Shown here: positions 9,119-29,985 of the stretch, piece by piece | Layout of the letters: each line of letters opens with the position of its first letter | Position numbering within the stretch: position 1 is the first letter of the stretch | Assembly (NCBI GenBank): GCA_945861765.1 | Contig: CAMAWP010000016.1 | Location: 1 to 43,664, forward strand | From: Akkermansia muciniphila | GTDB taxonomy: Bacteria > Verrucomicrobiota > Verrucomicrobiia > Limisphaerales > SIBE01 | Length of the DNA: 43,664 bases | Direction of reading: 5' to 3' | Position numbers and translations under genes: made by a program | Notes under the pieces: model-generated | Databases searched by the model: none | Seen by the model: the letters and a program-made list of their open reading frames with translations, nothing else | What the model was told of the DNA's origin: nothing

Positions 9119-12373
<3,255 letters not shown>

Positions 12374-13642: not shown

Positions 13643-13691
13643 AGGCAAAGAGTCGTTCAGTTCGTAATGGAGTGTTTGCAGGCCGGGCGGA

Positions 13692-15068: not shown

Positions 15069-15148
15069 AAAACGGACTTTCAACGGACACAATGGATCAA
15101 GGAAACAGAATCAGGGCGTGCGAGCAGACCGTGCGAACGGGGAAGGAA

Positions 15149-15163
15149 TCCTCGGAAAGAGGA
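15149..15163 (-). promoter_or_regulatory. Hairpin directly after the stop codon of small protein A
   Basis: On the minus strand TCCTC TTTCC GAGGA forms a 5-bp stem with a 5-nt loop, beginning 5 nt after the TAA of the upstream small gene. Equivalent hairpins follow small proteins B (19702-19713) and C (29441-29457) at 4-5 nt. In all three leaders a pyrimidine-rich TTCCCCG-like stretch follows. No U-tract follows, so it does not look like a Rho-independent terminator. A role in regulating the downstream efflux genes is inference. Confidence 0.5.
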
Positions 15164-15168
15164 CTCAG

Positions 15169-15552
15169 TTAGGAAGCAAGCGAAGGAGCGCGAACAGGGA
15201 GAGCAGCGCGGAAGGCGAACTGCCAGCTTGTGCCGAGTTCAGGTGGAGGTGGACTCAAGCTTCCACCACCGGGATCGGCATCCGGGTCTGCATTGAGCAA
15301 CAGGACGCACAACAACTCAAGGCTGTGCGAGAGGTCGAGGGAATTGCTTAAAGGGCGCTGAAGTTCCTCGTGGCTGGATTCGATGCGACAGACCCCGTCA
15401 GCAGCCTCGTGGTTCTTGTCCGAATGATCAGACCCGTCGGCATGGGCATGGTCCTGATGAATCAGTCCCAAGCTTTCCAATAGCGGATGCGATGATGCAA
15501 ACGCGAACAGCGTCAACATCAGAATTGCCACTATGGGCTTGAGACATCTCAC
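15169..15552 (-). CDS. Small secreted His-rich protein A, head of efflux unit 1
   Basis: The GTG complementary to 15550-15552 gives a 127-residue protein with a good signal peptide (MRCLKPIVAILMLTLFAFAS). A TTG at 15594 would add 14 residues that weaken it. The mature protein has a metal-binding-like cluster (IHQDHAHADGSDHSDKNH), then a Cys (GVCRIE), a short hydrophobic stretch and a Pro-rich segment. The tail, SWQFAFRAALPVRAPSLAS, is shared almost exactly with small proteins B (19718-20125) and C (29463-29840). All three precede efflux genes on the same strand. I do not recognise an established family; Cys/His-rich DUF2946/CopL-type upstream proteins are the nearest idea. Possible roles are periplasmic metal chaperone or regulatory leader protein. 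Confidence 0.72.
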   Translation of the reverse strand: MRCLKPIVAILMLTLFAFASSHPLLESLGLIHQDHAHADGSDHSDKNHEAADGVCRIESSHEELQRPLSNSLDLSHSLELLCVLLLNADPDADPGGGSLSPPPPELGTSWQFAFRAALPVRAPSLAS

Positions 15553-15642
15553 AACGTTAAAGGTATGGGCAAGGGCAACCCCGCGCAACGACAATTTACG
15601 CGGAGCCGTCCCGCAAAACCGAATCCACTTGGGTGTCCTTTA

Positions 15643-18600
15643 TCATGAGTCTGCGGGGTGAACGGACGATACGCGACTCGGAGATTCGATCCCTCTGCGC
15701 TCCACCCACTCGTAGAGCACGGGCAGCAGGACGAGCGTAAGAAAAGTTGAAGTGATGATGCCGCCGATGACGACGGTCGCGAGCGGGCGCTGGACTTCTG
15801 CACCTGCGCCGGAAGCAATCGCCATCGGCACGAAGCCAAAGCTGGCGACTAGCGCGGTCATCAACTTCGGGCGCAGCCGGGTCAGTGTGCCCTCGATGAC
15901 AGCTTCGCGCACAGTGCGACCTTCACGCCTCAACTGGTTGATGAAGCTGATGAGCATGATGCCGTTCAGGACGGCGATGCCACTGAGCGCGATGAATCCC
16001 ACACCCGCGCTGATGGTGAAAGGCATGTCGCGCACCCACAGCGCGAAAATGCCGCCCGTGACGGCAAGCGGCACGCAGACGAAAATGAGAGCGGCCTGCC
16101 GGAAGCTGCCGAAGCTCAGAAAAATCAGGATGAAGATGAACACCAACGCCATCGGCACGATGATGGCGAGCCGCAGCCGCGCCCGTTGCAGGTTCTCGAA
16201 CTGCCCACCGAACTCGAAGTAGTAGCCGGGCGGAAACTTCACCTCGGCCTTGATGCCAGCGAGAGCCTCTTTTACGAAACCTTCCACGTCGCGTCCACGC
16301 AGGTTCACGAGCACGGCGGCGCGACGCTGGCCGGATTCACGAGTGACTGCGCCGACAGCTTCTAGCATCTCGAAGCGGGCAACTTGACCGAGCGTTAGCA
16401 AGCCGCCTTCGTCCGTCCGCACCGGCAACCGCTTCATCGTGTCCACACTTTGACGGGCAGCTTCGGCAAGACGCACGACGATGGGGAAGCGCCGGTTGCC
16501 CTCGATGATGGTGCCCACTTCCTCGCCCGCCAGCGCCGTGGCAATGGCGCGATTCAGGTCTTCGGTTTGCAGACTGTAGCGGCGGAGCGCGTCGCGGTCG
16601 GGTTTGATTTCCAGCAGTGGCGAGCGACCGAAGGCGTCGAATTCCACGTCGCCGCTGCCGGGAAGTTTGCGGAGCAAGTCGCGAACTTCCGTGGCCAGCC
16701 GCTCCAACTCCTTGAAATCGTCGCCGTAAATCTTCACCGCGATGTCGGCGCGGACGCCCGCCATCATTTCGTTGAAGCGCATCTGAATCGGTTGGGTGAA
16801 CAGATACGTCTGCCCCGGCACATGCACCGCGAGATCGCGGCGCATCAGTTCGATGAGTTCCTCCTTGGTCGCGGGACGGCCATTGATTTTGCGCCACTGG
16901 TTGCGCGGTTTGAATTCAACATAGGTGTCGCACAGGTTTGGCCCCATCGGGTCCACGGCGATTTCCGCCGTGCCGATCAGGCCAAATATGCGGTCGATTT
17001 CGGGGAACTTTTCCAGCAGCCGTTTCTCGGACTGACGCTGCAATTCGGTGGACGCGCCCAGCCCGGCGCTGCTGCTGCGGATGAATTGCAGGAGCATCGT
17101 GCCCTCTTCGAGTTGCGGGATAAACTCCGCGCCCAGCCGCGTCAAGACCAACAGCGACGAGCCGAACAGAACTACGGCGGCTGTGACAACGACCAGTTTG
17201 AACTGGAGCGCCCACGCGAGCAGCGGTGTGTAAACCGCCTTGAAGAAACGCACGAGCCAGTTGTCGTCCTCCTTGATTTTGCCGCGCAGGAAATAGGAAC
17301 AAAGCACCGGCATAAGCGTGAGCGCCAGGACGAGCGAACCGGCGAGCGCGAAGATGACGGTGAGCGCCATCGGGCGGAACATTTTTCCTTCGATGCCGGT
17401 GAGCGCGAGGATTGGGATGTAAACGACTGTGATGATGAGCACCCCAAAGAACATCGGGCTGGCGACTTCCTTCGCCGAGAAACGCACTTCGTCGAAGCGT
17501 TCGGCGGCGGTGAGTTCGCGGCCCAGTGCCTTCTGCTTGTGCGCGAGATGACGGATGATGTTTTCCACCATCACCACCGCGCCGTCGATGATGAGTCCAA
17601 AGTCGATGGCCCCGAGGCTCATCAGGTTCCCTGACACGCGGCTCTCCACCATTCCGGTAACGGCGAAGAGCATCGACAGAGGAATCGCCAACGCAACAAT
17701 CAGCGCTGCCCGCAGATTGCCGAGCAGCGCGAACAGCACGACCACGACGAGCAACGCGCCCTCGAACAGACTTGTCTCGACCGTGTGCAGGGTGCGGTTC
17801 ACCAGGTCGGAACGATTGTAGAGCGGGCGCACCTCCACGCCGGGCGGCAGCTTCTCCTGGATGTGTTTCAGCTTCGCCGCCACGTCTCGGGCCACGATGC
17901 GGCTGTTCCCACCCGCCAGCATCAAAGCGCCGCCGACCACGCCCTCTTCACCATTCACCGTGGCCGCGCCGGTGCGGAAACTCGACCCGATTCCAACCTG
18001 GGCCACGTCTTGCACGAGAAGCGCCTTCGCCGCCCCGGCGAACTTGAGCGGGATGTTCGCAATCTCATCGGTGGTGCTCACTCGGCTGTTGGCGCGGATG
18101 ACGATCTGTTCGCCGCCGATTTCGACCAGCCCTCCGCCGACGTTCTGGGTGTTCTCACCGATAGTGTGCGCTAGTTCATCCATCGTCAGGCCGACGCTCG
18201 TCAGACGCGCCGGATCGGGCATGACGACGATTTGCTTTTCATAGCCGCCGCTCGTGTTCACCTCAGCGACGCCGGGCGTAGCACGGAGTAGTGGGCTGAT
18301 GATGTATTCCTGAATCTGCTTGAGGGTCATCAGTTGCCCCGTTCGCGTCATCGTGGCAGCCGAGGTAACGAGGCTCTGAGTTTCCGCGTTCGTTGGTTTG
18401 AGCCTCCTCACGTCGGATGCAGGAGAGTTGGACGCAAAATCGACCGTGTAGTAGAAAATCTCACCGAGCGCGGTGCTGATGGGTGCAAGCCTGGGGTGCA
18501 GGCCGGGCGGGAGTTTTTCCGCCGCGACCAGCAGTCGCTCGCTCACCAGTTGCCGCGTGCGGTAGAGGTCAACGTCGTCCTCGAACGTCATGCGGATTTG

Positions 18601-18873
18601 CGAGAGGCCGAACTTCGAGAGCGAGCGCAGTTCGATCATGCCGGGCAGTCCGGCCATCTGGCTTTCGAGCGGGAGCGTGACGAGCTTCTCGATTTCCTCC
18701 GGCGCAAGCGCGGGCACGGCAGTGTTCAATAGCACCTGGGGATTGGTGATGTCCGGCACCGCGTCAATCGGCAGGCGTAGGGCCGACCATGCGCCGACAC
18801 CAACAAGGACGAGCGCGGCCAGCAATACGAGCGGCCGTTGGCGGAGCGACCACTCGACGGTCTTGAGTATCAT
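15643..18873 (-). CDS. CzcA-type heavy-metal RND efflux pump, copy 2, with an in-frame palindromic-element insertion
   Basis: A 1076-residue RND pump with helix-4 motif DFGLIIDGAVVMVEN, here D424, D430 and E437. The roughly 20-residue shift relative to copies 1 and 3 comes from an extra segment at residues about 154-174 (DVRRLKPTNAETQSLVTSAAT), encoded by the palindromic element at 18353-18420. The segment lies in the first periplasmic domain just before LMTLKQIQEYIISPLLR and keeps the frame. Otherwise the protein is complete, ending soon after the last membrane helix. It is preceded by its adaptor gene with a 4-bp gap and followed by small gene A. The metal is likely a divalent cation on the same grounds as copy 1. 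Confidence 0.94.
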   Translation of the reverse strand: MILKTVEWSLRQRPLVLLAALVLVGVGAWSALRLPIDAVPDITNPQVLLNTAVPALAPEEIEKLVTLPLESQMAGLPGMIELRSLSKFGLSQIRMTFEDDVDLYRTRQLVSERLLVAAEKLPPGLHPRLAPISTALGEIFYYTVDFASNSPASDVRRLKPTNAETQSLVTSAATMTRTGQLMTLKQIQEYIISPLLRATPGVAEVNTSGGYEKQIVVMPDPARLTSVGLTMDELAHTIGENTQNVGGGLVEIGGEQIVIRANSRVSTTDEIANIPLKFAGAAKALLVQDVAQVGIGSSFRTGAATVNGEEGVVGGALMLAGGNSRIVARDVAAKLKHIQEKLPPGVEVRPLYNRSDLVNRTLHTVETSLFEGALLVVVVLFALLGNLRAALIVALAIPLSMLFAVTGMVESRVSGNLMSLGAIDFGLIIDGAVVMVENIIRHLAHKQKALGRELTAAERFDEVRFSAKEVASPMFFGVLIITVVYIPILALTGIEGKMFRPMALTVIFALAGSLVLALTLMPVLCSYFLRGKIKEDDNWLVRFFKAVYTPLLAWALQFKLVVVTAAVVLFGSSLLVLTRLGAEFIPQLEEGTMLLQFIRSSSAGLGASTELQRQSEKRLLEKFPEIDRIFGLIGTAEIAVDPMGPNLCDTYVEFKPRNQWRKINGRPATKEELIELMRRDLAVHVPGQTYLFTQPIQMRFNEMMAGVRADIAVKIYGDDFKELERLATEVRDLLRKLPGSGDVEFDAFGRSPLLEIKPDRDALRRYSLQTEDLNRAIATALAGEEVGTIIEGNRRFPIVVRLAEAARQSVDTMKRLPVRTDEGGLLTLGQVARFEMLEAVGAVTRESGQRRAAVLVNLRGRDVEGFVKEALAGIKAEVKFPPGYYFEFGGQFENLQRARLRLAIIVPMALVFIFILIFLSFGSFRQAALIFVCVPLAVTGGIFALWVRDMPFTISAGVGFIALSGIAVLNGIMLISFINQLRREGRTVREAVIEGTLTRLRPKLMTALVASFGFVPMAIASGAGAEVQRPLATVVIGGIITSTFLTLVLLPVLYEWVERRGIESPSRVSSVHPADS
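18353..18420. repeat. Palindromic element, copy 1, inserted in frame inside czcA copy 2
   Basis: The plus strand starts GTGGCAGCCGAGGTAACGAG and ends AGCCTCCTCACGTCGGATGC, imperfect inverted repeats of the same terminus found in copies at 23494-23575 and 27927-28012. The interior (TTCGTTGGTTTGAGCCTCC) also resembles the 23494 copy. It is 68 bp, shorter and more diverged than the other two. It is translated as DVRRLKPTNAETQSLVTSAAT in the pump. Confidence 0.82.
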
Positions 18874-18877
18874 GCGG

Positions 18878-19627
18878 CTATTTCCCCTTCGCTGGCATGA
18901 CGCAGCACGCCTGCCCGCCTTTGACCGCCGCCAGTTCCGTCATCCACAGCGACATCACAGGCTGCAACACAACTTGGTCGCCGGAGTAAAGGCCGTCGGT
19001 GATTTCCACGAGGTCGGCGTTCGCCGCGCCCACCTTGACCGGAGTGCGAACCAGATGTTCACCGCTCACCGTGTAGACGGAGTAGCCATCGCTGCATTGG
19101 AGCAACGCGGCGGCGGGAATGGACACGACGTTCGTGGCGTCGTCGCGGGTGATGCGGGCTTGAAGAAACGCTCCGGCCAACACGCCATCCGGCACGGGAC
19201 GAAACTCGACGAGGACTTCGAGCGTGCCCGTGGCCCTCCGCAACTCGTCGGTCAACCGCGTTACTTTACCGTTGAACGGCTGACCGTCCGCTGACTGCAA
19301 CTCCACAGGCTGACCGGCTCTCAGCTTTTCGGCTTGCTCCGGCGTCAAGGTGCCGCTGGCCTTTCCGTCGCCTTCGCCCACTTGATACACGCGCAGCGGC
19401 AGGTCAAGTGTCGCGCTCACTCGTTGCTCGGTGACTTCGGCGATCCGCACGCCCAGGGACTGCCGCGTGTCCTCCGGCAACAGCAGCCCTTTTTTGCTGT
19501 GTTGCGGGCCGAGGACGACGGCTTCGCCCTCGCTGGCGGTCACGGAACTTCTAGGTTTGCACGCGGTCATCGTCGCGCTCGCGAGCACCGCTGCCAGGAT
19601 GGGGATGTAGAAATTGTTTTGCTTCAT
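18878..19627 (-). CDS. Short periplasmic adaptor lipoprotein (HlyD/CzcB-like), unit 2
   Basis: The ATG complementary to 19625-19627 gives 249 residues with a lipoprotein-type signal (ILAAVLASATMTAC, Cys23). The mature part keeps the barrel and membrane-proximal parts of membrane fusion proteins (LPEDTRQSLGVRIAEVT; LRAGQPVELQSADGQPFNGKV; VVSIPAAALLQCSDGYSVYTV; LVEITDGLYSGDQVVLQPV). The lipoyl halves and alpha-hairpin that normally reach TolC are missing. A Cys pair sits near the C-terminus (GGQACCVMPAKGK). It resembles the unit 3 adaptor (27191-28027). It is encoded 4 bp upstream of czcA copy 2. Docking to TolC without a hairpin would need another partner. Confidence 0.85.
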   Translation of the reverse strand: MKQNNFYIPILAAVLASATMTACKPRSSVTASEGEAVVLGPQHSKKGLLLPEDTRQSLGVRIAEVTEQRVSATLDLPLRVYQVGEGDGKASGTLTPEQAEKLRAGQPVELQSADGQPFNGKVTRLTDELRRATGTLEVLVEFRPVPDGVLAGAFLQARITRDDATNVVSIPAAALLQCSDGYSVYTVSGEHLVRTPVKVGAANADLVEITDGLYSGDQVVLQPVMSLWMTELAAVKGGQACCVMPAKGK

Positions 19628-19701
19628 AACGGACCAAACGGGTTTTACCGACCAAGGGAACACACGCGGCGTGCGACAGGCACACCGCGACCGTGGGAAC
19701 C

Positions 19702-19713
19702 TCCCGAACGGGA
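19702..19713 (-). promoter_or_regulatory. Hairpin directly after the stop codon of small protein B
   Basis: TCCCG TT CGGGA on the minus strand pairs as a 5-bp stem closing a 2-nt loop (or a 4-bp stem with a GUUC loop). It starts 4 nt after the TAA of small gene B and is followed by GGTTCCCACGGTC. Position and context match the hairpins after small proteins A and C. No U-tract follows. Confidence 0.5.
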
Positions 19714-19717
19714 TTCG

Positions 19718-20125
19718 TTACGAAGCGAGGGAAGGCGCACGCGGCGGAAGCGCGGCGCGGAAGGAAAACTGCCAGGAGACGGGCAAATCTGGTGGAGCGG
19801 TGGCGGTTTGAAGGGGTCCAATTTTACCGTGCCGTTGAACCTTCATGATAGAGGTGGTGCAATCGAACAACAGCACACCGGGTGGCGCGATGAGGAGCAA
19901 CTGGTCTTGCTGTGAGATGTAATTGGCGGAAGCCAGAGCGCCGCACGGCTTGTCGCAGTTGCCTGGACCGGGAACGGAATGAGAATGCTCTTTGGAGCAG
20001 CAATCCCGCTTGCCCAGCAAGCCCGATGCGTCAATCAAACAACATGAAGCCGCTGGCACCCAAAGGAGCGCCAGCACCAACGCGACAAATGCCTTGAACC
20101 GCTGCACGGAAAAGCAATACCACAT
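19718..20125 (-). CDS. Small secreted Cys-rich protein B, head of efflux unit 2
   Basis: From the ATG complementary to 20123-20125 the protein is 135 residues. It opens with a signal peptide (VQRFKAFVALVLALLWVPAAS) followed by a cysteine-rich region: CCLIDASG, KRDCCSKEHSHS and NCDKPCGALASANY. The C-terminus is a Pro-containing linker and the conserved tail SWQFSFRAALPPRAPSLAS. It aligns with protein C over most of its length (LAxxWVPxxSxCxLxAxxG, later a C-x-x-x-C element and a YxSxxxQ segment) and with protein A in the tail. The open frame continues upstream to 20557, but that part is antisense to the cupin gene and not signal-like. Probably exported and metal-binding; see findings for a regulatory reading. 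Confidence 0.78.
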   Translation of the reverse strand: MWYCFSVQRFKAFVALVLALLWVPAASCCLIDASGLLGKRDCCSKEHSHSVPGPGNCDKPCGALASANYISQQDQLLLIAPPGVLLFDCTTSIMKVQRHGKIGPLQTATAPPDLPVSWQFSFRAALPPRAPSLAS

Positions 20126-20266
20126 CGGCAGTGCCGAAGCAATGCGGGAGATTGGTAGAGCGAGACGGGGTGGGGCCATGCGCGAAGCCAAGAGCCGGGA
20201 CAGATGTGAAATTGATCCAATTGACTGGCGTTGCTTGCCGGTCCTCTTTGAAGGACAATTACCAAC
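20126..20266. promoter_or_regulatory. Divergent intergenic region between small gene B and the cupin gene
   Basis: These 141 bp separate two outward-facing genes and must hold promoters for efflux unit 2 (minus) and the cupin (plus). A TTGACT at 20221-20226 could be a -35 element for the cupin, but no convincing -10 follows. AAGGA at 20251-20255 is a plausible ribosome-binding site 11 bp before the cupin ATG. No clear operator palindrome was found. Confidence 0.4.
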
Positions 20267-20761
20267 ATGAAACGAAACCATTTTCTTACGATCCTGATTT
20301 CCATTGTTGTGCCGTCCGCCTTGCTGCTCGCCCAGCAAGGCGCTCATGACGCGAAATCCACTCAGGCGAACCTTTACCCGCCTGCGAATATTCAATGGAA
20401 GAATGGCCCTGCTTCGCTCTCGCCGGGCGCGAAGATCGCCGTCCTCGAAGGTGACCCGGCCAAGGATGGAATGTTTGTCATGCGCGTGCGCGTGCCCGAT
20501 GGTTTCCACATCCCGCCGCATACCCATCCCAAACCGGAGCGTGTGACCATCATTCAAGGCAAGTTCCTACTGGCGATGGGTGACAATCCGAAGCGCGCCA
20601 ATGCCGAAGCCTTGCCCGCTGGAACCTACGGAGTCTGGCCGCCGGGAATGGTTCACGCCGTGTGGACTGAGGGCGAAACCATCGTGCAGTTTCACGGTAT
20701 AGGACCTTGGGTCATCAATTACGTCAATCTTGCTGACGACCCGCGCAACGCGAAGAAGTAG
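20267..20761 (+). CDS. Secreted cupin-domain protein
   Basis: A 164-residue protein with a signal peptide (MKRNHFLTILISIVVPSALLLAQQ) and one cupin barrel. Cupin motif 1 is HIPPHTHPKPERVTIIQGKF (His, His, Glu metal ligands) and motif 2 is LPAGTYGVWPPGMVHAVWT with the last ligand His. Such single-domain exported cupins bind a metal and are often annotated as cupin_2 or DUF4437-like; the reaction is unknown. It is the only plus-strand gene in this part of the metal island apart from the four-helix-bundle gene, and it diverges from small gene B, so it may share its regulation. Confidence 0.85.
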   Translation: MKRNHFLTILISIVVPSALLLAQQGAHDAKSTQANLYPPANIQWKNGPASLSPGAKIAVLEGDPAKDGMFVMRVRVPDGFHIPPHTHPKPERVTIIQGKFLLAMGDNPKRANAEALPAGTYGVWPPGMVHAVWTEGETIVQFHGIGPWVINYVNLADDPRNAKK

Positions 20762-20871
20762 CACGACTCGCGAGCAACGCTGGGCACGTTCGTTGTGTGA
20801 CGCAATCACGCCTGGGCGGGATCTCCATTGATGTGCGCAAAGTCCGCGAATGATTCCCTTTAAAATGATGC

Positions 20872-23016
20872 TCACTTCGACTTCAACAATCGCAGTGCGT
20901 TCGCAATGACGACGAGCGTTGCGCCCGTGTCCGCCAGAATCGCCAGCCAGAGGCTCGTGTAGCCGGACAACGCGAGCGCCAGGAACACGGCCTTCACGCC
21001 AAGCGCGAAGGCGATGTTCGCTTGAATGATGCGGACGGTGCGCCGGCCAAGTTGAATGGCTTCGGCCACCTTGCTCAAATCATCCTGCATCAGCGCGATG
21101 TCGGCTGTTTCAATCGCCGTGTCTGTGCCCACGCCGCCCATTGCGATGCCGATGCTGGCCGCGGCCATCGCGGGAGCGTCGTTCACGCCGTCCCCGATCA
21201 TGCCGACGTGTTTGTGCAGTGCGAGCAGTTCACGGACACGCTCGATTTTCTGGTCGGGCAGCAAATCACCTTTAGCCTCGTCAATCCCAACCTGTTCGGA
21301 AATTGCGTCCACCGTTCGCTGATTGTCGCCGCTTAACATGACGACCTTTTCCACCCCGGCGGCGTGCAGGGCTTTGATGGCTTCGATGGCGTTGGGGCGG
21401 ATGGTGTCGGCAATAGCGAGAATTCCCAGCACTTCGCCTTTGCAATCTTGGTGCGGTTTGTCGCCGACGATGACAACTGACATTGCTTGCGCTTCTAATT
21501 CGGCAAGTTTCTTTTCGAGTTCATCCGAACAGACGGCGGATTCGTGCGCAAAGCGGTGATTGCCGACGAAATACAGGTGGCCGGCAATCTGCGCCTCCGC
21601 GCCCCGACCGGTTTTGGATTGATAGCTCTCGCTACGCGGGAACTGAATCTTCTTTTCCTCCGCATACTTCACGACGGCTTGCGCCAGCGGATGCTCGGAG
21701 TGAGTGTCAATCGCAGCGGCGACGCGCAGGATTTCTTCCTCGGCTTTCCCGTTCCACGGAATCACCTGTTGGACGCGAGGTTTGCCTTCGGTGATCGTGC
21801 TGGTCTTGTCCACGGCGAGAGCCTTGAGCTTTCCAATTTCTTCCAGGAACACTCCGCCCTTGATGAGCACGCCGCGCCGCGCCATCGCGGTCAGGCCGGA
21901 GACAATCGAGACGGGCGTGGCAATCACCAGTGCGCACGGACAGGCGATGACAAGTAGAACCAGCGCGCGATACGTCCACTCCAACCATGCGCCATTGAAA
22001 AGCAACGGGCCGGACAGCAGGACTAGAATCGCCACGACGAAAACCGCAGGCGTGTAAATCTTGGCGAAGCGGTCAACGAAGCGTTGTGAGGGCGCTTTCT
22101 GGCCTTGCGCGTCGCCGAGAAGCTTGATGATTTTGGCCAGCGTGGTGTGGGTCGAAGCCTTGGTCACTTTCACTTCAAGCGAGCCTTCGCCGTTGATTGT
22201 TCCCGCGAAGACGGTGTCACCCGCTTTCTTTTCCACCGGCATGGATTCGCCAGTGATGGGCGCTTGGTTGATAGCGGATTCACCGGAAGTGACAACGCCA
22301 TCCAGCGGCACGCGCGCTCCCGATTTGATGACGATGGTTTCATCCACTTTGACTTCTTCAACTCGCACATCCTGAATCTGATCCCTTCGTTTCACCAGCG
22401 TGGTATCCGGGGTGAGTTCGAGCAGCGATTGGATTGCCCTGCGAGCGCGGCCGACACTGAATCCTTCCAGCAGTTCCGACAGCTCGAACAGAAACACGAC
22501 TGCCGCTGCCTCCGTCCATTCGCCGATGCACGCCGCGCCGATCACCGCGACACTCATCAGCACATTCATGTCGAGCGAGAAGTGGCGCAGGGCGCGAACC
22601 GCCTTCGGGAGAATGAACCAGCCTCCAGCGAGTATGGCGACGACAGCGGCGGTGGCTTTGCCGTAGGGCGCAAAAAGATTCTGGCATTGCAACAGAAGTG
22701 AAACTCCCGTGAAGACGGCGGAGATGCTGACTAGAACTACGCGAACCTTGTTAAAATCAGCGGTGTGTTCCTCCTCCGTTTCGTTTCCACCCATCGCCGG
22801 TGAAGCCTTCAATCCTGCCGTGGCGATGGCTTTGATGAGTTGTTCTGGCGTAACCGATTTGTCGTGGATAATCGTCGCCGTCCCCGCCATGAGGTTGACA
22901 TTGACCTCGCCAACCCCGGAGAGCGGTTTAAGCGCCCTTTCAATCGCGGCGATTTCATCGGGACAGTCCATCCCAGCGACGCGCAAGGTCGTCGCCGAGT
23001 TTGCGATGTTGCCCAC
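20872..23016 (-). CDS. P1B-type heavy-metal-transporting ATPase (ZntA/CadA-like) with DKTST phosphorylation motif
   Basis: A 714-residue pump starting at a GTG (complement of 23014-23016). Residues about 10-75 form one HMA domain with GMDCPDE in place of the common GMxCxxC. The membrane part carries CPC at 359-361 and the end of the protein has DTGATLVVIANALRLL, as in Zn/Cd/Pb pumps of the ZntA group. TGES, a HSEHPLAQA nucleotide-binding element and GDGVNDAP are intact. The phosphorylation loop reads DKTSTIT: D403 is present but the normally invariant Gly is Ser406 (codon 21799-21801, AGC versus GGC). It follows the small CGGC-tailed gene on the same strand and probably exports divalent metal from the cytoplasm if active. 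Confidence 0.93.
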   Translation of the reverse strand: MGNIANSATTLRVAGMDCPDEIAAIERALKPLSGVGEVNVNLMAGTATIIHDKSVTPEQLIKAIATAGLKASPAMGGNETEEEHTADFNKVRVVLVSISAVFTGVSLLLQCQNLFAPYGKATAAVVAILAGGWFILPKAVRALRHFSLDMNVLMSVAVIGAACIGEWTEAAAVVFLFELSELLEGFSVGRARRAIQSLLELTPDTTLVKRRDQIQDVRVEEVKVDETIVIKSGARVPLDGVVTSGESAINQAPITGESMPVEKKAGDTVFAGTINGEGSLEVKVTKASTHTTLAKIIKLLGDAQGQKAPSQRFVDRFAKIYTPAVFVVAILVLLSGPLLFNGAWLEWTYRALVLLVIACPCALVIATPVSIVSGLTAMARRGVLIKGGVFLEEIGKLKALAVDKTSTITEGKPRVQQVIPWNGKAEEEILRVAAAIDTHSEHPLAQAVVKYAEEKKIQFPRSESYQSKTGRGAEAQIAGHLYFVGNHRFAHESAVCSDELEKKLAELEAQAMSVVIVGDKPHQDCKGEVLGILAIADTIRPNAIEAIKALHAAGVEKVVMLSGDNQRTVDAISEQVGIDEAKGDLLPDQKIERVRELLALHKHVGMIGDGVNDAPAMAAASIGIAMGGVGTDTAIETADIALMQDDLSKVAEAIQLGRRTVRIIQANIAFALGVKAVFLALALSGYTSLWLAILADTGATLVVIANALRLLKSK

Positions 23017-23039
23017 CCCTCGGCGGACGTCCTCACCGC

Positions 23040-23486
23040 TCAGTGGTCGCAGGTGCAGCCGTACTCGGCGCGCTTGCAGCCGCCGCAGAGGCTCATGTCC
23101 AGTTTGAAGCGGAGATTAAACGGTTTGGCGTCGGCGGTCTGCTTGAACTGCACCACGACGTTGTAGCCTTCGCCATCCGGCAGCTTCGTCTTGCTGACGA
23201 GTGAATCGCCATTCTTCTCGAACGCCAGCGTTGCCTTGCCGCTCTTGGCGTCAGCGATCACCGTGACGTTTTGGTCAGCGGCAGGAACCGGTTTCAAGTT
23301 CGCGTCGTAGAACGCGATGGTGACAGTGCGGTCTTTCTCGACGTAGAACTCAGCTTTCGGGCTGGTCTTGTCGAGAATGCGACCACCCTTGGGGCCGCCT
23401 TCGACCTTCTTCTCGGCGGCAGTGGCGGTGAACAGGCCGACGCAGAGCGCGACGGCGACGGTGAGGATGTGGATGCGTGTTTTCAT
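23040..23486 (-). CDS. Secreted stand-alone CzcB-N-like domain protein with Cys-rich C-terminal metal site
   Basis: A 148-residue protein with a signal peptide (MKTRIHILTVAVALCVGLFTATAA). The mature part opens EGGPKGGRILDKTSPKAEFYVEKD, like the extra N-terminal domain of the CzcB-1 adaptor in this window (GPHGGRLL.. then acidic/aromatic strand). It seems to be the same beta-sandwich as a free protein. It ends in CGGCKRAEYGCTCDH, with four Cys and a His, a likely metal site. It lies between czcA copy 3 and the ATPase on the same strand, 23 bp before the ATPase start. A periplasmic metal carrier feeding the pumps is the best inference. Confidence 0.8.
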   Translation of the reverse strand: MKTRIHILTVAVALCVGLFTATAAEKKVEGGPKGGRILDKTSPKAEFYVEKDRTVTIAFYDANLKPVPAADQNVTVIADAKSGKATLAFEKNGDSLVSKTKLPDGEGYNVVVQFKQTADAKPFNLRFKLDMSLCGGCKRAEYGCTCDH

Positions 23487-23493
23487 TTTATTG

Positions 23494-23575
23494 GTAGCAG
23501 ACGACGTGAGGAGGCTCTATCCCTCCGTCGCTTCGGTTGGTGTTTCAGTTAGAGCCTCCTCACGTCGGCTGCTAC
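23494..23575. repeat. Palindromic element, copy 2, forming the 3' end of czcA copy 3
   Basis: An 82-bp element with 25-bp imperfect inverted termini: the plus strand begins GTAGCAGACGACGTGAGGAG and its other end is the complement (CACGTCGGCTGCTAC). The czcA copy 3 frame enters it and reads KRSSRREEALTETPTEATEG before stopping at TAG (complement of 23517-23519) inside the element. It ends 8 bp from the start codon of the next gene (23486), so it also fills most of the gap between the two genes. Confidence 0.9.
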
Positions 23576-26500
23576 GTTTAGTTTCAAGCCACTCGTAAAG
23601 CGTCGGGAGCAAAACGAGAGTGAGGAAAGTGGAGGATAGGATGCCGCCGATCACGACGGTGGCGAGCGGGCGTTGGACTTCCGCGCCCGCGCCACTGGCA
23701 ATCGCCATCGGCAGGAAGCCGAGCGAGGCTACGAGCGCCGTCATGAGTTTGGGACGCAAGCGCAGCAGAGAGCCGTCCCAGACGGCAGTGCGCACGTCGG
23801 CGCCGCGCTCCCGCAACTGGTTGAAGAAAGTGATGATCATGAGTCCGTTGAGGACAGCGATGCCGGAAAGCGCGATGAAGCCCACGCCCGCCGAAATGCT
23901 GAACGGCAGGTCGCGCGCCCACAGCGCAAAGACGCCGCCGGTCACGGCGAGCGGCACGGCCAGGAACACCAGCAGGGATTGCCGCACGCTTTGCAGGGCC
24001 ATGAAGATGAGGATGAAAATCAGCGCCATCGCAACAGGCACGACGATGGTGAGCCGTTTCCGCGCTTCCATCAGGTTCTTGAACTGGCCGCCGAACTCGA
24101 TGGTGTAGCCGTCCGGCAGCTTGATTTGCTCCGTGATCTTCTTTTGCGCTTCGAGGACGAAGCTTTCCACGTCGCGTCCGCGCAGGTTCACCATGATGGC
24201 GGCGCGGCGTTGGCTGAACTCACGGGCGATGGCGGCGACTTGTTCGACCACGCGGAAGTCGGCGACCTGGCCAAGCGTGAGCAAGCCGCCGTCGTCCACC
24301 CGCACGGGCAGACGCTTGAGATCGTCGATTTTCTCGCGCAATTCCTCGCTCAAGCGAATCACAATGTCGAAGCGGCGGTTGCCTTCGATGAGCTTGCCCA
24401 CTTCCTGCCCGGCGAGCGCGGCGGTGACCACGCGGTTCAACTCGGCGGCGTGCAGGTTGTATTGGCTCATCGCCTCGCGCTTGGGAACTATTTCGAGCAA
24501 AGGTGATTTGCCGAGCGCATCGAACTCCACGTCCGCCGCGCCGGGAACTTTTTCCAAAATGTCCCGCGCCTCGCTGGCAATCCTCTCAATCACCGCGAAG
24601 TCCTCACCAAAGACTTTCACCGCGATGTCGGCGCGGGTGCCTTCGAGAATTTCGTTGAAGCGCATTTCAATGGGTTGGCTGAACAAATGGCCTTCGCCGG
24701 GAAGGTGCTTGCCCAACTCCTCGGTCATCAGCGCGGCGAGGGCTTCCTTGCCGATGGGTTTGCCGTCCACTTTGCGCCACTTATCCAGCGGATTGAACAT
24801 GATGTAGGTGTCCGCGACGTTCACGCCCATCGGGTCGCTCGCGATTTCCGCCGTTCCGAGGCGGCTGAAGGTGTAGGAAACTTCGGGAAATTTCTCCAGT
24901 AGCAGCTTCTCGCCGCGTTTCTGCATTTCCACGCTGGCATCAATGCCGATGCTCGTCGTGCGAATCATGTGGGTGGCGAACGAACCTTCGTCCAATTGGG
25001 GCACGAATTCCGCCCCCAGCCGGTTGAACACAGAAACCGCCAGGATGAACAAAACCAGCGCCGCGCCGGTGACGACCCAGCGGAAGCCCAGCGCGAAGCG
25101 CAGGATGGGCGTATAGACGATCTTGGCCCAGTTCACGAGGAAGCTGTCCTTCTCCTTGATGTTACCGCCGAGCAGATACGAGCAAAGCGCAGGCATGAAC
25201 GTGAGTGCCAGAGCCATCGAACCGACGAGCGCGAAGATGACGGTGATCGCCATCGGCTTGAACATTTTTCCCTCGATGCCAGTGAGCGCGAGAATCGGGA
25301 AATAGACGACGGTGATGATGCACACGCCGAAGAACATTGGGCTGGCGACCTCCTTGGCGCTGACGAGCACTTCCTGGGCTCGCTCCAGCGCGGTTAACCG
25401 GCGTCCGAGCTTGTGCTGTTTCTCCGCGAGATGACGGATGATGTTTTCCACCATCACGACCGCGCCATCCACGATCAGACCGAAGTCAATCGCGCCCAGG
25501 CTCATCAAATTGCCGGAGACTCGGCTCTGCACCATGCCGGTCATAGCGAAGAGCAGTGACAGCGGAATGGCCAACGCGACGATGAAGGCCGCACGCCAGT
25601 TAGCGAGCATGACGAGCAGCACGACGACGACTAGGATCGCGCCCTCAAACAAACTTGTTTCCACCGTGCGGATGGTGCGATCCACCAGCACGGTGCGGTC
25701 ATAGACCGGGATGATTTGCACGCCCGCCGGGAGTTTGGTCTGAATCTCCTTGAGCTTTTCATCCACACGTTTGGCGACGATGCGGCTGTTTTCACCGGCC
25801 AGCATCAGGGCGGAGCCGAGCACAGCTTCTTCGCCGTTGTAAGTCGCCGTGCCGGTGCGAACGGCTTTCCCGATGCCCACGTCCGCAACGTCTTTGACGC
25901 GCAACGGCGTGGCGCGCGAACCGAACTTGAGCGGCAGCCGCTCGATTTCCTCCACGGTTTGCACCCGGCCCGCCGCGCGCACCGTGACCGATTCGCCGCC
26001 GAGTTGGATCAGGCCACCACCTGCATTCTCGACGTTCTCGCCGATGGCTTCGGCAATTTCACTAAACGACATGCCGACGCTCTTGAGCTTGTCGGGATTG
26101 GGCTGAATGACGATTTGCTTTTCGTAACCGCCGGTGGTGTTGACTTCGGCGAGGCCGGGTGTGGAACGCAGGCGCGGCTTGATGACGTAATCGTGCAGGA
26201 GCTTGAGTTCCATCAACTGCGCCTCGCGCGTGGCGGGCTTGTTCGTAGCGCCCACCGCGTATTCGACGACGTAGTAATAAATCTCGCCGAGGCCGGTGCT
26301 GATGGGCGCGAGCTTGGGCGTGAGGCCGGGTGGCAATTCATCAATCACCGTCTGCAAGCGTTCGCTAACGAGTTGGCGCGAGCGATAGATGTCTGTGCCA
26401 TCCTCGAAGATGATGTTCACTTGCGAGAGTCCGAACTTGGAGAGCGACCTCAACTCCGTCAGGCCGGGGATGCCCGCCATCTCGTTCTCAATCGGAAAGG

Positions 26501-26696
26501 TGACGAGCTTTTCGATTTCCTCCGGGGCCAGAGCGCGGATCGCAGTGTTGATCTGCACCTGGACGTTGGTGATGTCCGGCACGGCGTCAATCGGCAGGCG
26601 CAGCGCGGAGTAAAGGCCGATGCCAACCATGACCACGGTGGCGAGCAGCACGACCACGCGCTGGCGGACGGAGAATTCAAGGAGACGGTTGAGCAT
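23517..26696 (-). CDS. CzcA-type heavy-metal RND efflux pump, copy 3
   Basis: A 1059-residue RND pump, closer to copy 2 than to copy 1. Helix 4 reads [15 protein letters not shown] with D404, D410 and E417, the CzcA proton-relay set. The periplasmic segment EYAVGATNKPATREAQLMELK is the uninterrupted version of the place where copy 2 has its insertion. The last 19 or so residues (RSSRREEALTETPTEATEG) and the stop codon come from the palindromic element at 23494-23575; the native C-terminus probably ended near EWLETK. Unit 3 also has a TolC (28024-29349) and a short adaptor (27191-28027), but a plus-strand four-helix-bundle gene separates them from this pump. Confidence 0.94.
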   Translation of the reverse strand: MLNRLLEFSVRQRVVVLLATVVMVGIGLYSALRLPIDAVPDITNVQVQINTAIRALAPEEIEKLVTFPIENEMAGIPGLTELRSLSKFGLSQVNIIFEDGTDIYRSRQLVSERLQTVIDELPPGLTPKLAPISTGLGEIYYYVVEYAVGATNKPATREAQLMELKLLHDYVIKPRLRSTPGLAEVNTTGGYEKQIVIQPNPDKLKSVGMSFSEIAEAIGENVENAGGGLIQLGGESVTVRAAGRVQTVEEIERLPLKFGSRATPLRVKDVADVGIGKAVRTGTATYNGEEAVLGSALMLAGENSRIVAKRVDEKLKEIQTKLPAGVQIIPVYDRTVLVDRTIRTVETSLFEGAILVVVVLLVMLANWRAAFIVALAIPLSLLFAMTGMVQSRVSGNLMSLGAIDFGLIVDGAVVMVENIIRHLAEKQHKLGRRLTALERAQEVLVSAKEVASPMFFGVCIITVVYFPILALTGIEGKMFKPMAITVIFALVGSMALALTFMPALCSYLLGGNIKEKDSFLVNWAKIVYTPILRFALGFRWVVTGAALVLFILAVSVFNRLGAEFVPQLDEGSFATHMIRTTSIGIDASVEMQKRGEKLLLEKFPEVSYTFSRLGTAEIASDPMGVNVADTYIMFNPLDKWRKVDGKPIGKEALAALMTEELGKHLPGEGHLFSQPIEMRFNEILEGTRADIAVKVFGEDFAVIERIASEARDILEKVPGAADVEFDALGKSPLLEIVPKREAMSQYNLHAAELNRVVTAALAGQEVGKLIEGNRRFDIVIRLSEELREKIDDLKRLPVRVDDGGLLTLGQVADFRVVEQVAAIAREFSQRRAAIMVNLRGRDVESFVLEAQKKITEQIKLPDGYTIEFGGQFKNLMEARKRLTIVVPVAMALIFILIFMALQSVRQSLLVFLAVPLAVTGGVFALWARDLPFSISAGVGFIALSGIAVLNGLMIITFFNQLRERGADVRTAVWDGSLLRLRPKLMTALVASLGFLPMAIASGAGAEVQRPLATVVIGGILSSTFLTLVLLPTLYEWLETKRSSRREEALTETPTEATEG

Positions 26697-26706
26697 GGTC
26701 AGGAGT

Positions 26707-26741
26707 CAGGGGACAGGGGACAGGGGACAGGGGACAGGGGA
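26707..26741. repeat. Tandem 7-bp repeat (5 x cagggga)
   Basis: Five perfect head-to-tail copies of cagggga lie just upstream of czcA copy 3 and beside the inserted four-helix-bundle gene. Related CCTGACCCCT-like words occur on both sides of that gene (about 26771 and 27174). The repeat occupies the leader of the pump gene and may vary in copy number by slippage. Confidence 0.92.
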
Positions 26742-26799
26742 GGGAGTCGGGGCCTCCTGAACTCTGGCGCCTGACCCTTGTTCCTTGTAATCTTTGGAC

Positions 26800-27174
26800 A
26801 TGCAAATCAGATCGGCGAAGAAATTGATGGCTTACAAGAAGGGTTATGAACTCGCGATGCGAGTGTTCCGGTTGAGCAAGGCATTCCCGGCAGAGGAACG
26901 ATTCGCGCTCACGAGCCAGATTCGCCGCGCGTCGCGATCGGTGTGCCTCAATCTTCGAGATGCGTGGGCGAAGCCCCGCTATGAGGCGCATTTCGTTTCC
27001 AAGCTGACCGATTGCGACGGTGAGAATGCGGAAACCGACTCGGGCCTCGATTTCGCCCTCGATTGCGGCTACATCACGGCCGCCGAGCACAGCGAGTTGG
27101 TCGCGCTCAGCGCCGAGGTCCGCAAACTGCTTGGTTCTATGCTGCTTCATCCTGAAAAGTGGCTTCAAAGCTGA
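26800..27174 (+). CDS. Four-helix-bundle protein (23S rRNA intervening-sequence / S23 family)
   Basis: From the ATG at 26800 the protein is 124 residues. It has the family's layout: KLMAYKKGYELAMRVFRLSKAFP, then a basic helix SQIRRASRSVCLNLRDAW, then KLTDCDGENAETDSGLDFAL (E-TxxxLxxA region) and a C-terminal helix ending in KWL. S23/four-helix-bundle proteins were first found inside 23S rRNA intervening sequences and also occur widely as free-standing genes; their function is uncertain. Here the gene lies on the opposite strand between two genes of an otherwise co-directional efflux unit, flanked by short repeats, as if inserted. Confidence 0.88.
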   Translation: MQIRSAKKLMAYKKGYELAMRVFRLSKAFPAEERFALTSQIRRASRSVCLNLRDAWAKPRYEAHFVSKLTDCDGENAETDSGLDFALDCGYITAAEHSELVALSAEVRKLLGSMLLHPEKWLQS

Positions 27175-27190
27175 CCCCTGACGCCTGCCT

Positions 27191-28027
27191 TCAGTGGCTA
27201 TGCCCACCGCCTTTGGTCGCGCGGAGTTCAATGAGCCAGAGGGTTTGCACGGGCTTGGTCACGACTTGGTCGCCCGCGAGAAGACCGTCGGTGATCTCCA
27301 CCCAGCCGTCGGCTTCCGACCCGACTTTGACCGCCGTGCGGAAATACGCGTCGCCGTTGACGGCATAGACGAACGTGCCTTCGGAAGTGCGCAACAAAGC
27401 CGCTTGCGGAATCGCCGCTACGGCTTTCTCGCGTGGCAGATTGATGCGGGCCGGGACGAACTCCCCGGACTTGAGCGCCGTCGTCGCATTGGACACACCG
27501 ATGACGACTTCGGATTCACCCAGGGCCAGCGCCTTTTGCACGGCTAGAACGACCCCGCTCAGCGGGCTGTCGGTGTCCTTGAGAACATGCACGGACTGGC
27601 CGGCTTTGACCACGGCGGCGCTCTCCGAAGAAAGAAACGCGGAGCCATGCACGTCGCAGCCGGAATGCACTTCCGGATTCAGCAGGTGATGGTGCTTCTC
27701 GCCGAAGATCTGAACGGTGAGGTGGATTTGGTTCGAGAGCTTCCGCTCCGTCACGTCCGCCGTTTCCAACCCGAGAATCTTCCGAGTCTCCTCCGTGAGG
27801 CTGACGCCCTTGCCCGCCTTGAACGAAGCGCCGGAAGGCGATTCCTCACCGTGATTGTGACCATCGTGCTTGCCGTGAGCCTCTCCCTTTTTGCCGCAGC
27901 CTGCCAGGGCGAGCGCCAGGATCAACGTAGCAGCCAACGTGAGGAGGCTCTGAATCCCCCGCCTCCTCGACCGCCGCGAGTCAATCCGGAGCCTCCTTAC
28001 GTCGGCTGCTACAATATTGGCTTTCAC
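27191..28027 (-). CDS. Short periplasmic adaptor lipoprotein (HlyD/CzcB-like), unit 3, with element-derived N-terminus
   Basis: A 278-residue protein starting at a GTG (complement of 28025-28027) that overlaps the upstream tolC stop by GTGA, implying coupled translation. Residues about 6-34 are encoded by the palindromic element at 27927-28012 (AADVRRLRIDSRRSRRRG, then QSLLTLAAT). The hydrophobic core continues into a perfect lipobox (LALAGC, Cys44). The mature start is His-rich (AHGKHDGHNHGEE), with more His at KHHH and GCDVHG. The rest keeps barrel and membrane-proximal parts (AAIPQAALLRTSEGTFVYAV; WVEITDGLLAGDQVV) but no recognisable alpha-hairpin. It ends KGGGHSH. It partners CzcA copy 3. 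Confidence 0.88.
   Translation of the reverse strand: MKANIVAADVRRLRIDSRRSRRRGIQSLLTLAATLILALALAGCGKKGEAHGKHDGHNHGEESPSGASFKAGKGVSLTEETRKILGLETADVTERKLSNQIHLTVQIFGEKHHHLLNPEVHSGCDVHGSAFLSSESAAVVKAGQSVHVLKDTDSPLSGVVLAVQKALALGESEVVIGVSNATTALKSGEFVPARINLPREKAVAAIPQAALLRTSEGTFVYAVNGDAYFRTAVKVGSEADGWVEITDGLLAGDQVVTKPVQTLWLIELRATKGGGHSH
27927..28012. repeat. Palindromic element, copy 3, at the tolC/adaptor junction of unit 3
   Basis: An 86-bp element starting GTAGCAGCCAACGTGAGGAG and ending CCTTACGTCGGCTGCTAC on the plus strand, imperfect inverted repeats of each other and of copies 18353-18420 and 23494-23575. It begins 12 bp past the tolC stop and is read in the same phase as the copy inside czcA copy 2 (AADVRRL ... 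QSLLTLAAT), supplying the N-terminus and the start of the signal-peptide core of the adaptor. Confidence 0.9.
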
Positions 28028-29349
28028 TTCGGATCCTCCGGCGCGGCGGTCTTGGTCAATGGCAACGGCAGGCCAGTTAGCAGTTCCAATTGCGCTGCGG
28101 ATTCGAGGGCCTCTTTCTTCGTGTCAAGCAAGCCCTCGACGGCATCTAGGTATTGCTTCTGCAACTCGACGTAGGTGGAAATTGGCACTGCGCCGAGCCG
28201 GTAATGGCGATCCGCCACTTCAGCAGCTTGCTGGAAATGGTGCACCGCGTCGGGGCGCCAATTCGCCATCTCACGCAAATGTGTTTCGTAGGTCAGCGCG
28301 GCTTCGATGACTTTGCGCTGAATCTCGCGCTCAGCGACGTTGAGTGAAACTTCGGCCTGCGTCTGTCTTGCGACGGCGGCTTCGACCGTGCCCTTGTTCC
28401 GATTCCACAGCGGCAATGGCAGCGACAACCCAATGCCCGCCTGGGTCTCTCGGTCGCCGCCCGCGCGCTCCTGCGCGACAAACGGGCCAACGGAAATCGC
28501 CGGATAACGCTCGTTTTTTGCGAGGTTCACTCGGAAGCCCTGTTGCGCCAGTTCAACGGCGCGGACGCGCAACTCAAAGTTGTTGGTCCTGGCCATCGAC
28601 ATCAGCGCGTTCCTGTCCGCTGGCGCTTGGAAGGTCAGATGTGTTTGGCCAATCGACAGGTGCGTGTCCGGAGGATTGCCACGAAGCTGGTTCAACTCTA
28701 GCAGCGCCGATTGGGCGGCGAGCCGCGCCCCGCTCGCCTTACGCTGCGCATTCAACTCGGTTGCCTCGATGACACGTGTTTCGAGGAGCGGAGTCAGGCC
28801 CGCCGGGTCGCGTTGCACCAGCACTTCGCGCAATGCCTTGAACCGTTCGGCGACCTCACTGGCTGCGGCGGACTTCTCCTGCGCCGCGAACAGGCCGTAG
28901 GCGAGAGTCCGCACCCGCCCGGCGAGCGCGACCTTGAATCGTTCGTAGCCAAGCTTCGCGAGTTCGATGTCGTGATTCGCGATGGCCTTGCGCAACCCCA
29001 TGCGCCCCGGCCACTCGAAAGGCTGCGCCACGGATACAGACCAGGCCACGCCCTCGGCGCTGAATCCACCTCCTCGCGCGGATTTTTGGCCGACGCCGCC
29101 GCTCAATTCTGGATTGGCGAACGAGCCAGCGGTCATTCGTCCAGCCTTCGCCGCGCTGATTTCAGCGTCATAGAATTTGAGTTCGGGATTCTTCTCCAAC
29201 GCCTCCGCCACGAGCGCGTCGAGCGTTTGCGAGACGTTTGTCGCGACGTTGGCGGAAACGGCTTCCTGCCCTTGCGCGATAGGCGCGATCTGGGATGCAG
29301 CGAGCGCCGCCACAGCGAATTGGCGACACCAAAGACTTGATAGCTTCAT
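28024..29349 (-). CDS. TolC/CzcC-family outer-membrane efflux protein, unit 3
   Basis: The ATG complementary to 29347-29349 gives 441 residues with a signal peptide (MKLSSLWCRQFAVAALAASQ, ending near AQGQ). The open frame runs on to 29628, but that part overlaps small gene C and is not signal-like. Two efflux repeats are seen: LVAEALEKNPELKFYDAEIS with FANPELSGGVGQ and VAQPFEWPGRMGLRKAIA, then NNFELRVRAVELAQQGFRVN with LPLWNRNKGTVEAAVAR. Near the end ISTYVELQKQYLDAVEGLLD is the usual second coiled-coil signature. It gives unit 3 its outer-membrane duct. The gene end overlaps the adaptor start by 4 nt. Confidence 0.92.
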   Translation of the reverse strand: MKLSSLWCRQFAVAALAASQIAPIAQGQEAVSANVATNVSQTLDALVAEALEKNPELKFYDAEISAAKAGRMTAGSFANPELSGGVGQKSARGGGFSAEGVAWSVSVAQPFEWPGRMGLRKAIANHDIELAKLGYERFKVALAGRVRTLAYGLFAAQEKSAAASEVAERFKALREVLVQRDPAGLTPLLETRVIEATELNAQRKASGARLAAQSALLELNQLRGNPPDTHLSIGQTHLTFQAPADRNALMSMARTNNFELRVRAVELAQQGFRVNLAKNERYPAISVGPFVAQERAGGDRETQAGIGLSLPLPLWNRNKGTVEAAVARQTQAEVSLNVAEREIQRKVIEAALTYETHLREMANWRPDAVHHFQQAAEVADRHYRLGAVPISTYVELQKQYLDAVEGLLDTKKEALESAAQLELLTGLPLPLTKTAAPEDPK

Positions 29350-29440
29350 AGATTCAAAACGGTCGGAACACGGACACGGCAAACCACGACGGAATGAGAA
29401 ACGTGGGCGCGACGAAGCGCCTGTTGAACCGGGGAAATGC

Positions 29441-29457
29441 CCTCGGCGGAAGCGAGG
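29441..29457 (-). promoter_or_regulatory. Hairpin directly after the stop codon of small protein C
   Basis: CCTCG and CGAGG on the minus strand form a 5-bp stem with a 7-nt loop, starting 5 nt after the TAA of small gene C. It is followed by GCATTTCCCCGGTTC, similar to the pyrimidine-rich stretches after the hairpins of units 1 and 2. No U-tract follows. Confidence 0.5.
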
Positions 29458-29462
29458 ACTAA

Positions 29463-29840
29463 TTACGAAGCGAGGGAAGGAGCACGGACAGGAAGAGCCG
29501 TGCGACGGGAAAACTGCCAGGATGTGGGTAGATCTGGGGGCGCCGACGTAAGGATGCCGAGACTCACCTCGACGGGAAGCGATTTTTCGACAGCCCCGAA
29601 ATTGTCTGCTGGCAGAATAGCGACGCAAATGATCGGGACACTTTTCTGTTGCCGAAACGATTGATATTTGGCGGATTCAACCGAGCAGCAATGACCCTCC
29701 TTGCAGGGGTCGCTTCCGCTGGATGTTGTCATCTCCGCGGAGCAACGAAGGAACTCGAAGCCTGGCATGGCTTCGAGTTGGCAATGGGACGTGAGTGGCA
29801 CCCACGCGAATGCCAGCAACATTACCCAAACTGTTCTCAT
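29463..29840 (-). CDS. Small secreted Cys-rich protein C, head of efflux unit 3
   Basis: The ATG complementary to 29838-29840 gives 125 residues with a signal peptide (MRTVWVMLLAFAWVPLTSHC); a GTG at 29852 is the only longer choice. The mature region has Cys/His positions at SHCQLEA, FLRCSAEM and DPCKEGHCCSVES, aligned with those of protein B. The C-terminus is APPDLPT followed by SWQFSRRTALPVRAPSLAS. The 113 bp between this gene and tolC include the stop-proximal hairpin. No promoter is apparent. It is a convincing homolog of B and shares the tail with A. Export and metal binding are inferred from signal peptide, Cys/His content and location. Confidence 0.78.
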   Translation of the reverse strand: MRTVWVMLLAFAWVPLTSHCQLEAMPGFEFLRCSAEMTTSSGSDPCKEGHCCSVESAKYQSFRQQKSVPIICVAILPADNFGAVEKSLPVEVSLGILTSAPPDLPTSWQFSRRTALPVRAPSLAS

Positions 29841-29985
29841 AAACGGCCGCACAGAATGATGAATATGCCATCGTATGGAATTGTCAACTGAAGTTTGGTG
29901 TGAATATCGGCATGGCCGCGCTTACCAGGGCGGTGTCTATTCGTTGGTGGACCCGCACCACAACGATCTGCTATACATGTCACCC

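Follow-up and report, generated by a model that had tools for sequence, protein, structure and literature searches.

Exported leader proteins with a constant arrest-like tail precede metal-efflux units in Verrucomicrobiia

A stretch of 43,664 nucleotides, contig CAMAWP010000016.1 of an assembly labelled Akkermansia muciniphila (GCA_945861765.1; hereafter the window), carries three small genes, A, B and C, each at the head of a metal-efflux unit with a CzcA-type pump. These genes probably encode cis-acting nascent-chain metal sensors, that is, upstream open reading frames (uORFs) whose constant C-terminal tail would stall the ribosome and thereby make the efflux gene behind them accessible at its start codon. 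Read directly from the sequences are a family, its tail, a fixed distance from the tail to the stop codon, the neighbouring genes, selection acting on the frames and, for some of the members, a helix at the start codon that appears to covary. Arrest, metal binding and a stall that metal prolongs rather than relieves are what we infer. A preliminary description of this DNA had suggested an undescribed family of metal sensors or chaperones. We keep the sensor, recast as a cis-acting nascent chain, and drop the chaperone, because ribosome arrest gives a better reading of the tail than a metal site or a chaperone feature. No named sequence family fits the window proteins, but systems of this kind are already known from CutF, CruR and the RAPP-class arrest peptides.

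All three genes occupy the positions first assigned to them, but on the minus strand, as the plus-strand reading contains stops. uORF A (15169..15552) starts with GTG and encodes an exported-type His-rich protein of 127 residues, whereas uORF B (19718..20125) and uORF C (29463..29840) encode exported-type Cys-rich proteins of 135 and 125 residues, respectively. Each protein has an N-terminal hydrophobic, export-signal-like stretch, and in the minus-strand translation each ends in an arrest-like tail followed by TAA: SWQFAFRAALPVRAPSLAS in A, SWQFSFRAALPPRAPSLAS in B and SWQFSRRTALPVRAPSLAS in C. Together with its stop codon, the tail spans 15169..15228 in A (19 codons plus TAA), 19718..19777 in B and 29463..29522 in C. 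On the same strand, A and C are followed by a gene for an outer membrane efflux protein (OEP/TolC), and B by a gene for a short adaptor-like protein that precedes the CzcA gene. Signal peptides, contrasting bodies, tails and downstream genes thus agree with the preliminary description, as does the lack of a named family, given that neither Pfam nor NCBIfam offers a family into which A, B or C would fit.

Seven tails were combined into a profile (A1), with which we searched 384 genomes from the class and 97 from the order. Selection by the 25-residue tail alone at E < 1e-3, with duplicates removed, yielded 101 distinct members in Verrucomicrobiia, far beyond chance, so the family is real. A search with a single tail sequence found few relatives, and the profile many. 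Comparison with the window proteins identified the gene after the tail gene as TolC-like in 86/101 members and as adaptor- or CzcA-type in 5/101; of the ten that remained, six matched Pfam OEP and two HlyD. Therefore, 99 of the 101 tail genes precede an efflux OEP or adaptor gene, with a median distance of 103 nt from uORF stop to start codon, which bears out the preference for tolC and heavy-metal-efflux resistance-nodulation-division (HME-RND) genes suspected from the window. A closer search of named species genomes gave 22 loci, all titled Verrucomicrobiota except one titled only 'bacterium'. No paper on a comparable Verrucomicrobial family was found in a literature search whose reach left out most subscription journals and supplements.

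Alignment of the members gave the tail consensus (PPEL)xxxWQFxxR(T/A)ALPxRAPSxxS. Among 89 non-redundant members (<70% identity), neither the Phe of WQF nor the Pro of RAP ever varies, 88 retain both conserved Arg residues and 83 the Trp. The core reads RAPS in 80 of the 101 members, RAPA in 6 and RAPD in 4, with other variants in the rest. Exactly four residues separate RAP from the stop in 86/101 members, and this distance is independent information because the profile knows nothing of stops. The body consists of an export signal ending in LWLPATSHCxLE, then scattered Cys (His in A-type members) with an element C..VE...Y, and is otherwise highly variable. Cys or His clusters, a putative metal motif, are present in A, B, C and most family members. 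AlphaFold2 prediction from 20 alignment rows gave a mean predicted local distance difference test score (pLDDT) of 59, with confidence only in the N-terminal helix (seen in C) and mostly no predicted structure in the body. In 16 pairs, the ratio of nonsynonymous to synonymous change (pN/pS) is 0.405 in the body versus 0.248 in the tail. The frames are thus under purifying selection, an outcome that spares the family from refutation, and the tail is indeed the more constrained part. For the three codons after RAPS, pN/pS rises to 0.66 at a low pS, as expected if these codons were held by RNA rather than by protein. An origin of the tail as a dispersed DNA repeat was considered and rejected: the codons of A, B and C differ, pN/pS is low, and the sole extra DNA copy is a truncated remnant. 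This remnant is a 132-bp piece of a C-type gene, 86% identical and broken right after VRA, within the 149 bp by which two contig ends overlap (C191:13084-13232 and C171:14398-14546, genome G000; L005, L006); it is either a decayed copy or a rearrangement point.

The spacers between uORF and efflux gene are structured and devoid of a Shine–Dalgarno (SD) sequence in all three units, with lengths of 100 nt in A (15069..15168, z -2.0), 90 nt in B (19628..19717, z -1.15) and 113 nt in C (29350..29462, z -1.6), all on the minus strand. Across the family, spacers are more structured than shuffles and control segments from the next gene (mean z -1.4 vs -0.1, p 1e-11), and only 2/84 contain an SD-like motif. 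Folding pairs the end of the uORF (CGCTTCGTAACG in B) with the downstream start (GTTATGAAGC). In B, the 5' arm (19716..19726) forms 11 contiguous pairs, one of them G-U, with a 3' arm (19621..19631) that includes the adaptor start codon at 19627-19625. In C, eight contiguous pairs, again with one G-U, join 29464..29471 to 29343..29350, which includes the tolC start codon at 29349-29347. The helix of A, between 15169..15176 and 15063..15070 with the tolC start codon at 15068-15066, is weak, with 4 + 3 pairs around one C-U mismatch; all arms are on the minus strand. For 85 non-redundant loci, the duplex of stop region and start region has a mean free energy of -9.3 kcal/mol between cognate partners versus -6.9 kcal/mol between permuted ones (z -8.3), and a GC-stratified permutation of the pairing gave z 4.7. 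In the offset map, only the combination of stop region and ATG stands out, one register being 59% paired compared with 34-43% in the others. Furthermore, 35 phylogenetically independent pairs contain 29 compensatory double changes, against 17.3 +- 3.8 expected (p 0.001). No known RNA element of Rfam was matched in the window.

These features enable us to propose a putative model of how the leaders might act. The uORF chain would be exported co-translationally, so that its Cys/His-rich segment could encounter extracytoplasmic metal at a time when the ribosome tunnel still encloses the tail (W-F-R-A-P-RAP|S). From there, the tail would arrest translation four codons ahead of the stop, when the Pro codon of RAP occupies the P site. 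In the metal-free state, the pull of export would release the stall; with metal bound, the pull would be weaker and the stall would last. We settled on this direction because metal should raise the level of an efflux pump, in line with CutF. On the mRNA, the last codons of the uORF and its stop would form the 5' arm of the helix, and the SD-less tolC or adaptor gene would have its start codon within the 3' arm. The stalled ribosome would cover the 5' arm and open the helix, allowing translation of the efflux gene, and release followed by termination would let the helix reform. The geometry is compatible with this scheme: the stretch from the Pro codon of RAP through the stop codon is 18 nt long, and a ribosome with that Pro codon in its P site would cover roughly 15 nt from there, which corresponds to the 5' arm.

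Among known systems, the CutF-like proteins are the closest class. CutF of Rhodobacter capsulatus and its likes are small exported proteins whose genes precede those for metal homeostasis, and they combine a Cys/His motif with a stalling-like C terminus that contains Pro; an OEP gene is their commonest neighbour, and the spacer contains an mRNA stem-loop (PMC9973294). Most of the functional definition of this class applies to the tail genes. They have an N-terminal export-type signal, a putative Cys/His metal motif, a stalling-like motif with Pro among the last 15 residues and, in 99/101 members, a same-strand metal gene less than 1000 nt downstream (median spacer 103 nt). CutF-like proteins with His-only clusters are linked to HupE/UreJ (PMC9973294), and the His-rich unit A likewise ends with a HupE gene. 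The systems also differ. The tail genes share a conserved tail of about 19 residues ending in RAPS plus three. In addition, the CutF-like stem-loop masks the SD sequence, whereas here, with an SD-like motif in just 2/84 spacers, a predicted helix pairs the SD-less start codon region with the last codons and stop of the uORF. CutF-like proteins come mainly from Pseudomonadota, Bacteroidota and Actinomycetota, other phyla being minor (PMC9973294).

The DUF2946 and CopL proteins named in the preliminary description as the nearest parallel proved right in layout. Membership of DUF2946 (PF11162) itself was rejected, as A, B and C remained unmatched up to E 10 and 3/82 family members matched, the best at 4.7e-5. 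The CopL and CzcI leaders of Pseudomonadota also encode small exported Cys/His-rich products before metal-resistance genes, but the window proteins gave no sequence match to them, one of 82 members matches CopL_fam (E 0.0019), and CzcI is without a C-terminal Pro motif (PMC9973294). CruR of Bordetella pertussis, a DUF2946 protein, is likewise encoded by a uORF and has a Cys metal motif. Its RAPP occupies residues 139-142, three before the C terminus (PMC9426467), giving the same distance from RAP to stop as in the tail family. CruR differs in sequence family and in controlling a TonB receptor, which metal switches off through Rho. An alternative modelled on it is an arrest leader of opposite logic, in which metal would relieve the stall and the ribosome would act on Rho-dependent termination in the spacer. 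CruR itself works by metal relief for a copper-repressed operon (PMC9426467), and spacers of about 100 nt would give Rho room. However, such relief would shut an efflux operon off by metal, which makes little sense, and the covariation points to the start codon. Intrinsic terminators showed no clear excess, and the three window spacers contained no intrinsic terminator-like site in a search that covered intrinsic sites and not Rho sites. We therefore regard this alternative as unlikely. True DUF2946 genes do occur in Verrucomicrobia: L120 (G134) and L121 (G426), ending in SRAPPVQIAA and DRGPPTDRA, lie before large ORFs that resemble TonB receptors by eye. They look like CruR-like leaders outside Pseudomonadota, coexisting with the tail family.

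The tail itself recalls the RAPP-class arrest peptides (ApcA, ApdA, ApdP, the RQH family and SecM), which are also small exported proteins with an R-A-P/G core close to the C terminus and precede a regulated gene. The cores near the C terminus are RAGP in SecM, RAPG in ApcA and RAPP in ApdA, ApdP and CruR. In the RAPP-like class, it is the third residue that occupies the P site of the stalled ribosome, and the motifs of ApcA-type uORFs include RAPS (PMC10987492). RAPP-like sequences are avoided in proteomes and favour the ends of small exported or membrane proteins, some of them before metal genes (PMC12992588). The RAPP-class peptides differ in sensing the capacity for export or insertion, and the relationship is limited to the core; arrest is shown for them, while our tail is arrest-like by sequence.

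Three loci outside the class suggest that the tail is a separable module. L160 (G748) is a Cys-rich uORF ending in PPWQFLLRTALPSHAPPFAS, before an OEP gene and with the same helix; its core, HAPP, is one of the published RAPP-like motifs (PMC10987492). L158 (G118) and L159 (G745) carry the tails TWQFRLRAAPQPRAPSCLS and TWQFRLRAALHPRAPTRLS, respectively, on exported-type bodies that lack a Cys/His cluster. In both, a Ribosomal_S30AE (hibernation-factor-type) gene that has its own SD-like sequence starts about 140 nt further downstream. These two uORFs are possibly arrest leaders of a ribosome hibernation factor. Since the tail occurs there with neither metal motif nor pump, it is separable, which fits an arrest module and not a metal chaperone. 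The same two loci favour a further alternative, namely plain leader ORFs that couple translation to the downstream gene and respond to export or ribosome status instead of metal, just as SecM-like monitors sense export only (PMC10987492). Yet nearly all bodies have Cys/His clusters and precede metal-type efflux units, and the His-rich body goes with a HupE gene, so we consider plain leaders quite improbable. Least probable of all are secreted metal chaperones or buffers of the pumps with the tail as a docking signal for TolC, adaptor or pump: exported-type products, Cys/His clusters and adjoining pump genes would suit them, but the tail is fixed at four residues from the stop, is found on a body free of metal clusters ahead of the Ribosomal_S30AE gene and follows a body that is poorly conserved and predicted mostly unstructured, and the codons after RAPS look RNA-constrained.

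Several points weigh against a nascent-chain sensor gating the efflux start codon. The core is RAPS, whereas arrest comes most readily from RAPP and RGPP (PMC12992588), and for the C terminus of CutF alone stalling could not be shown (PMC9973294). As to the helix, which is weak in A, an energy control within each locus placed the start window at a median quantile of 0.62 as partner of the 5' arm, and 12/85 loci reached the top 5% (about 4 expected). Covariation between the stop codon and its preceding base, with a Fisher p of 1.2e-5 beforehand, fell to 7:2 on independent pairs and is not significant. Because the start window is in most loci not the best energetic partner, the start-codon helix is supported only for part of the family.

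With the nascent-chain sensor still the preferred reading, a broader picture may be drawn tentatively. Verrucomicrobiota may possess a modular system in which a RAPS-type arrest tail is combined with interchangeable bodies (Cys, His or none) and outputs (HME-RND or a hibernation-type gene). Its last codons and stop would serve as an anti-start strand gating an SD-less gene, and each paralogous pump might have its own in-line metal sensor. The two metal-sensing exported nascent chains tested so far, CutF and CruR, follow opposite logic. A set of roughly one hundred natural variants, constant in the tail and swapped in the body, would make arrest, sensing and output separable. Moreover, the leaders could explain translational control of HME-RND pumps in Verrucomicrobia and would extend the range of outputs known for arrest peptides by the masking of start codons in SD-less genes.

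The efflux units behind the leaders all lie on the minus strand. In unit A, the putatively regulated OEP/TolC gene (13692..15068, ATG at 15068; PF02321, E 3.7e-36) is followed by genes for an RND adaptor with an uncertain start codon (12374..13651; PF16576), the CzcA-type RND pump (9119..12361; PF00873) and, at the end of the unit, a HupE/UreJ-type protein (8320..9081; PF13795, E 1.9e-51). Unit B comprises the putatively regulated gene for the short adaptor-like protein (18878..19627, ATG at 19627), which is without a Pfam match, and that for its CzcA-type RND pump (15643..18873; PF00873). Unit C begins with a putatively regulated OEP/TolC gene (28024..29349, ATG at 29349; PF02321, E 8.2e-34), contains a gene for a CzcA-type RND pump (23517..26696) and ends with one for a P1B-type metal ATPase with HMA and E1-E2 domains (20872..23016; PF00403, PF00122). 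Judging from such neighbours, one might guess at Cu/Ag or Zn/Cd as the metals of the Cys-rich B and C, with the P1B-ATPase in unit C, and at Ni/Co or Zn as those of the His-rich A with its HupE gene. A fourth copy of the leader lies on contig C69 of the same assembly, ahead of another tolC-czcA unit. The CzcA-type N-terminal motif is present in the three window pumps and on C69 and absent from the other RND genes looked at (C150, C116, C9, C337, C39 and, by eye, C219). Among the RND genes looked at, all four CzcA-type pumps found in the assembly thus sit in units headed by a tail gene.

A protein identical to C is encoded on a 44,032-base contig of a metagenome-assembled genome (MAG) labelled Akkermansia muciniphila, a doubtful label. 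Positions 13160-31132 of the window (contig C16) are 99.8% identical over 18 kb to contig C25 of G631 (L066), a genome assigned to a different family within the order. A contig has probably been mis-binned in one of these MAGs. In unit C, the adaptor gene is separated from the CzcA gene by a small ORF on the plus strand (26794-27174), four-helix-bundle-like by eye, which interrupts the operon. Two further minus-strand genes, at 7800-8258 and 23040-23486, lie at the ends of units A and C. Their small products look exported and have no Pfam match; one has a GHSH stretch and one ends in CGGCKRAEYGCTCDH.

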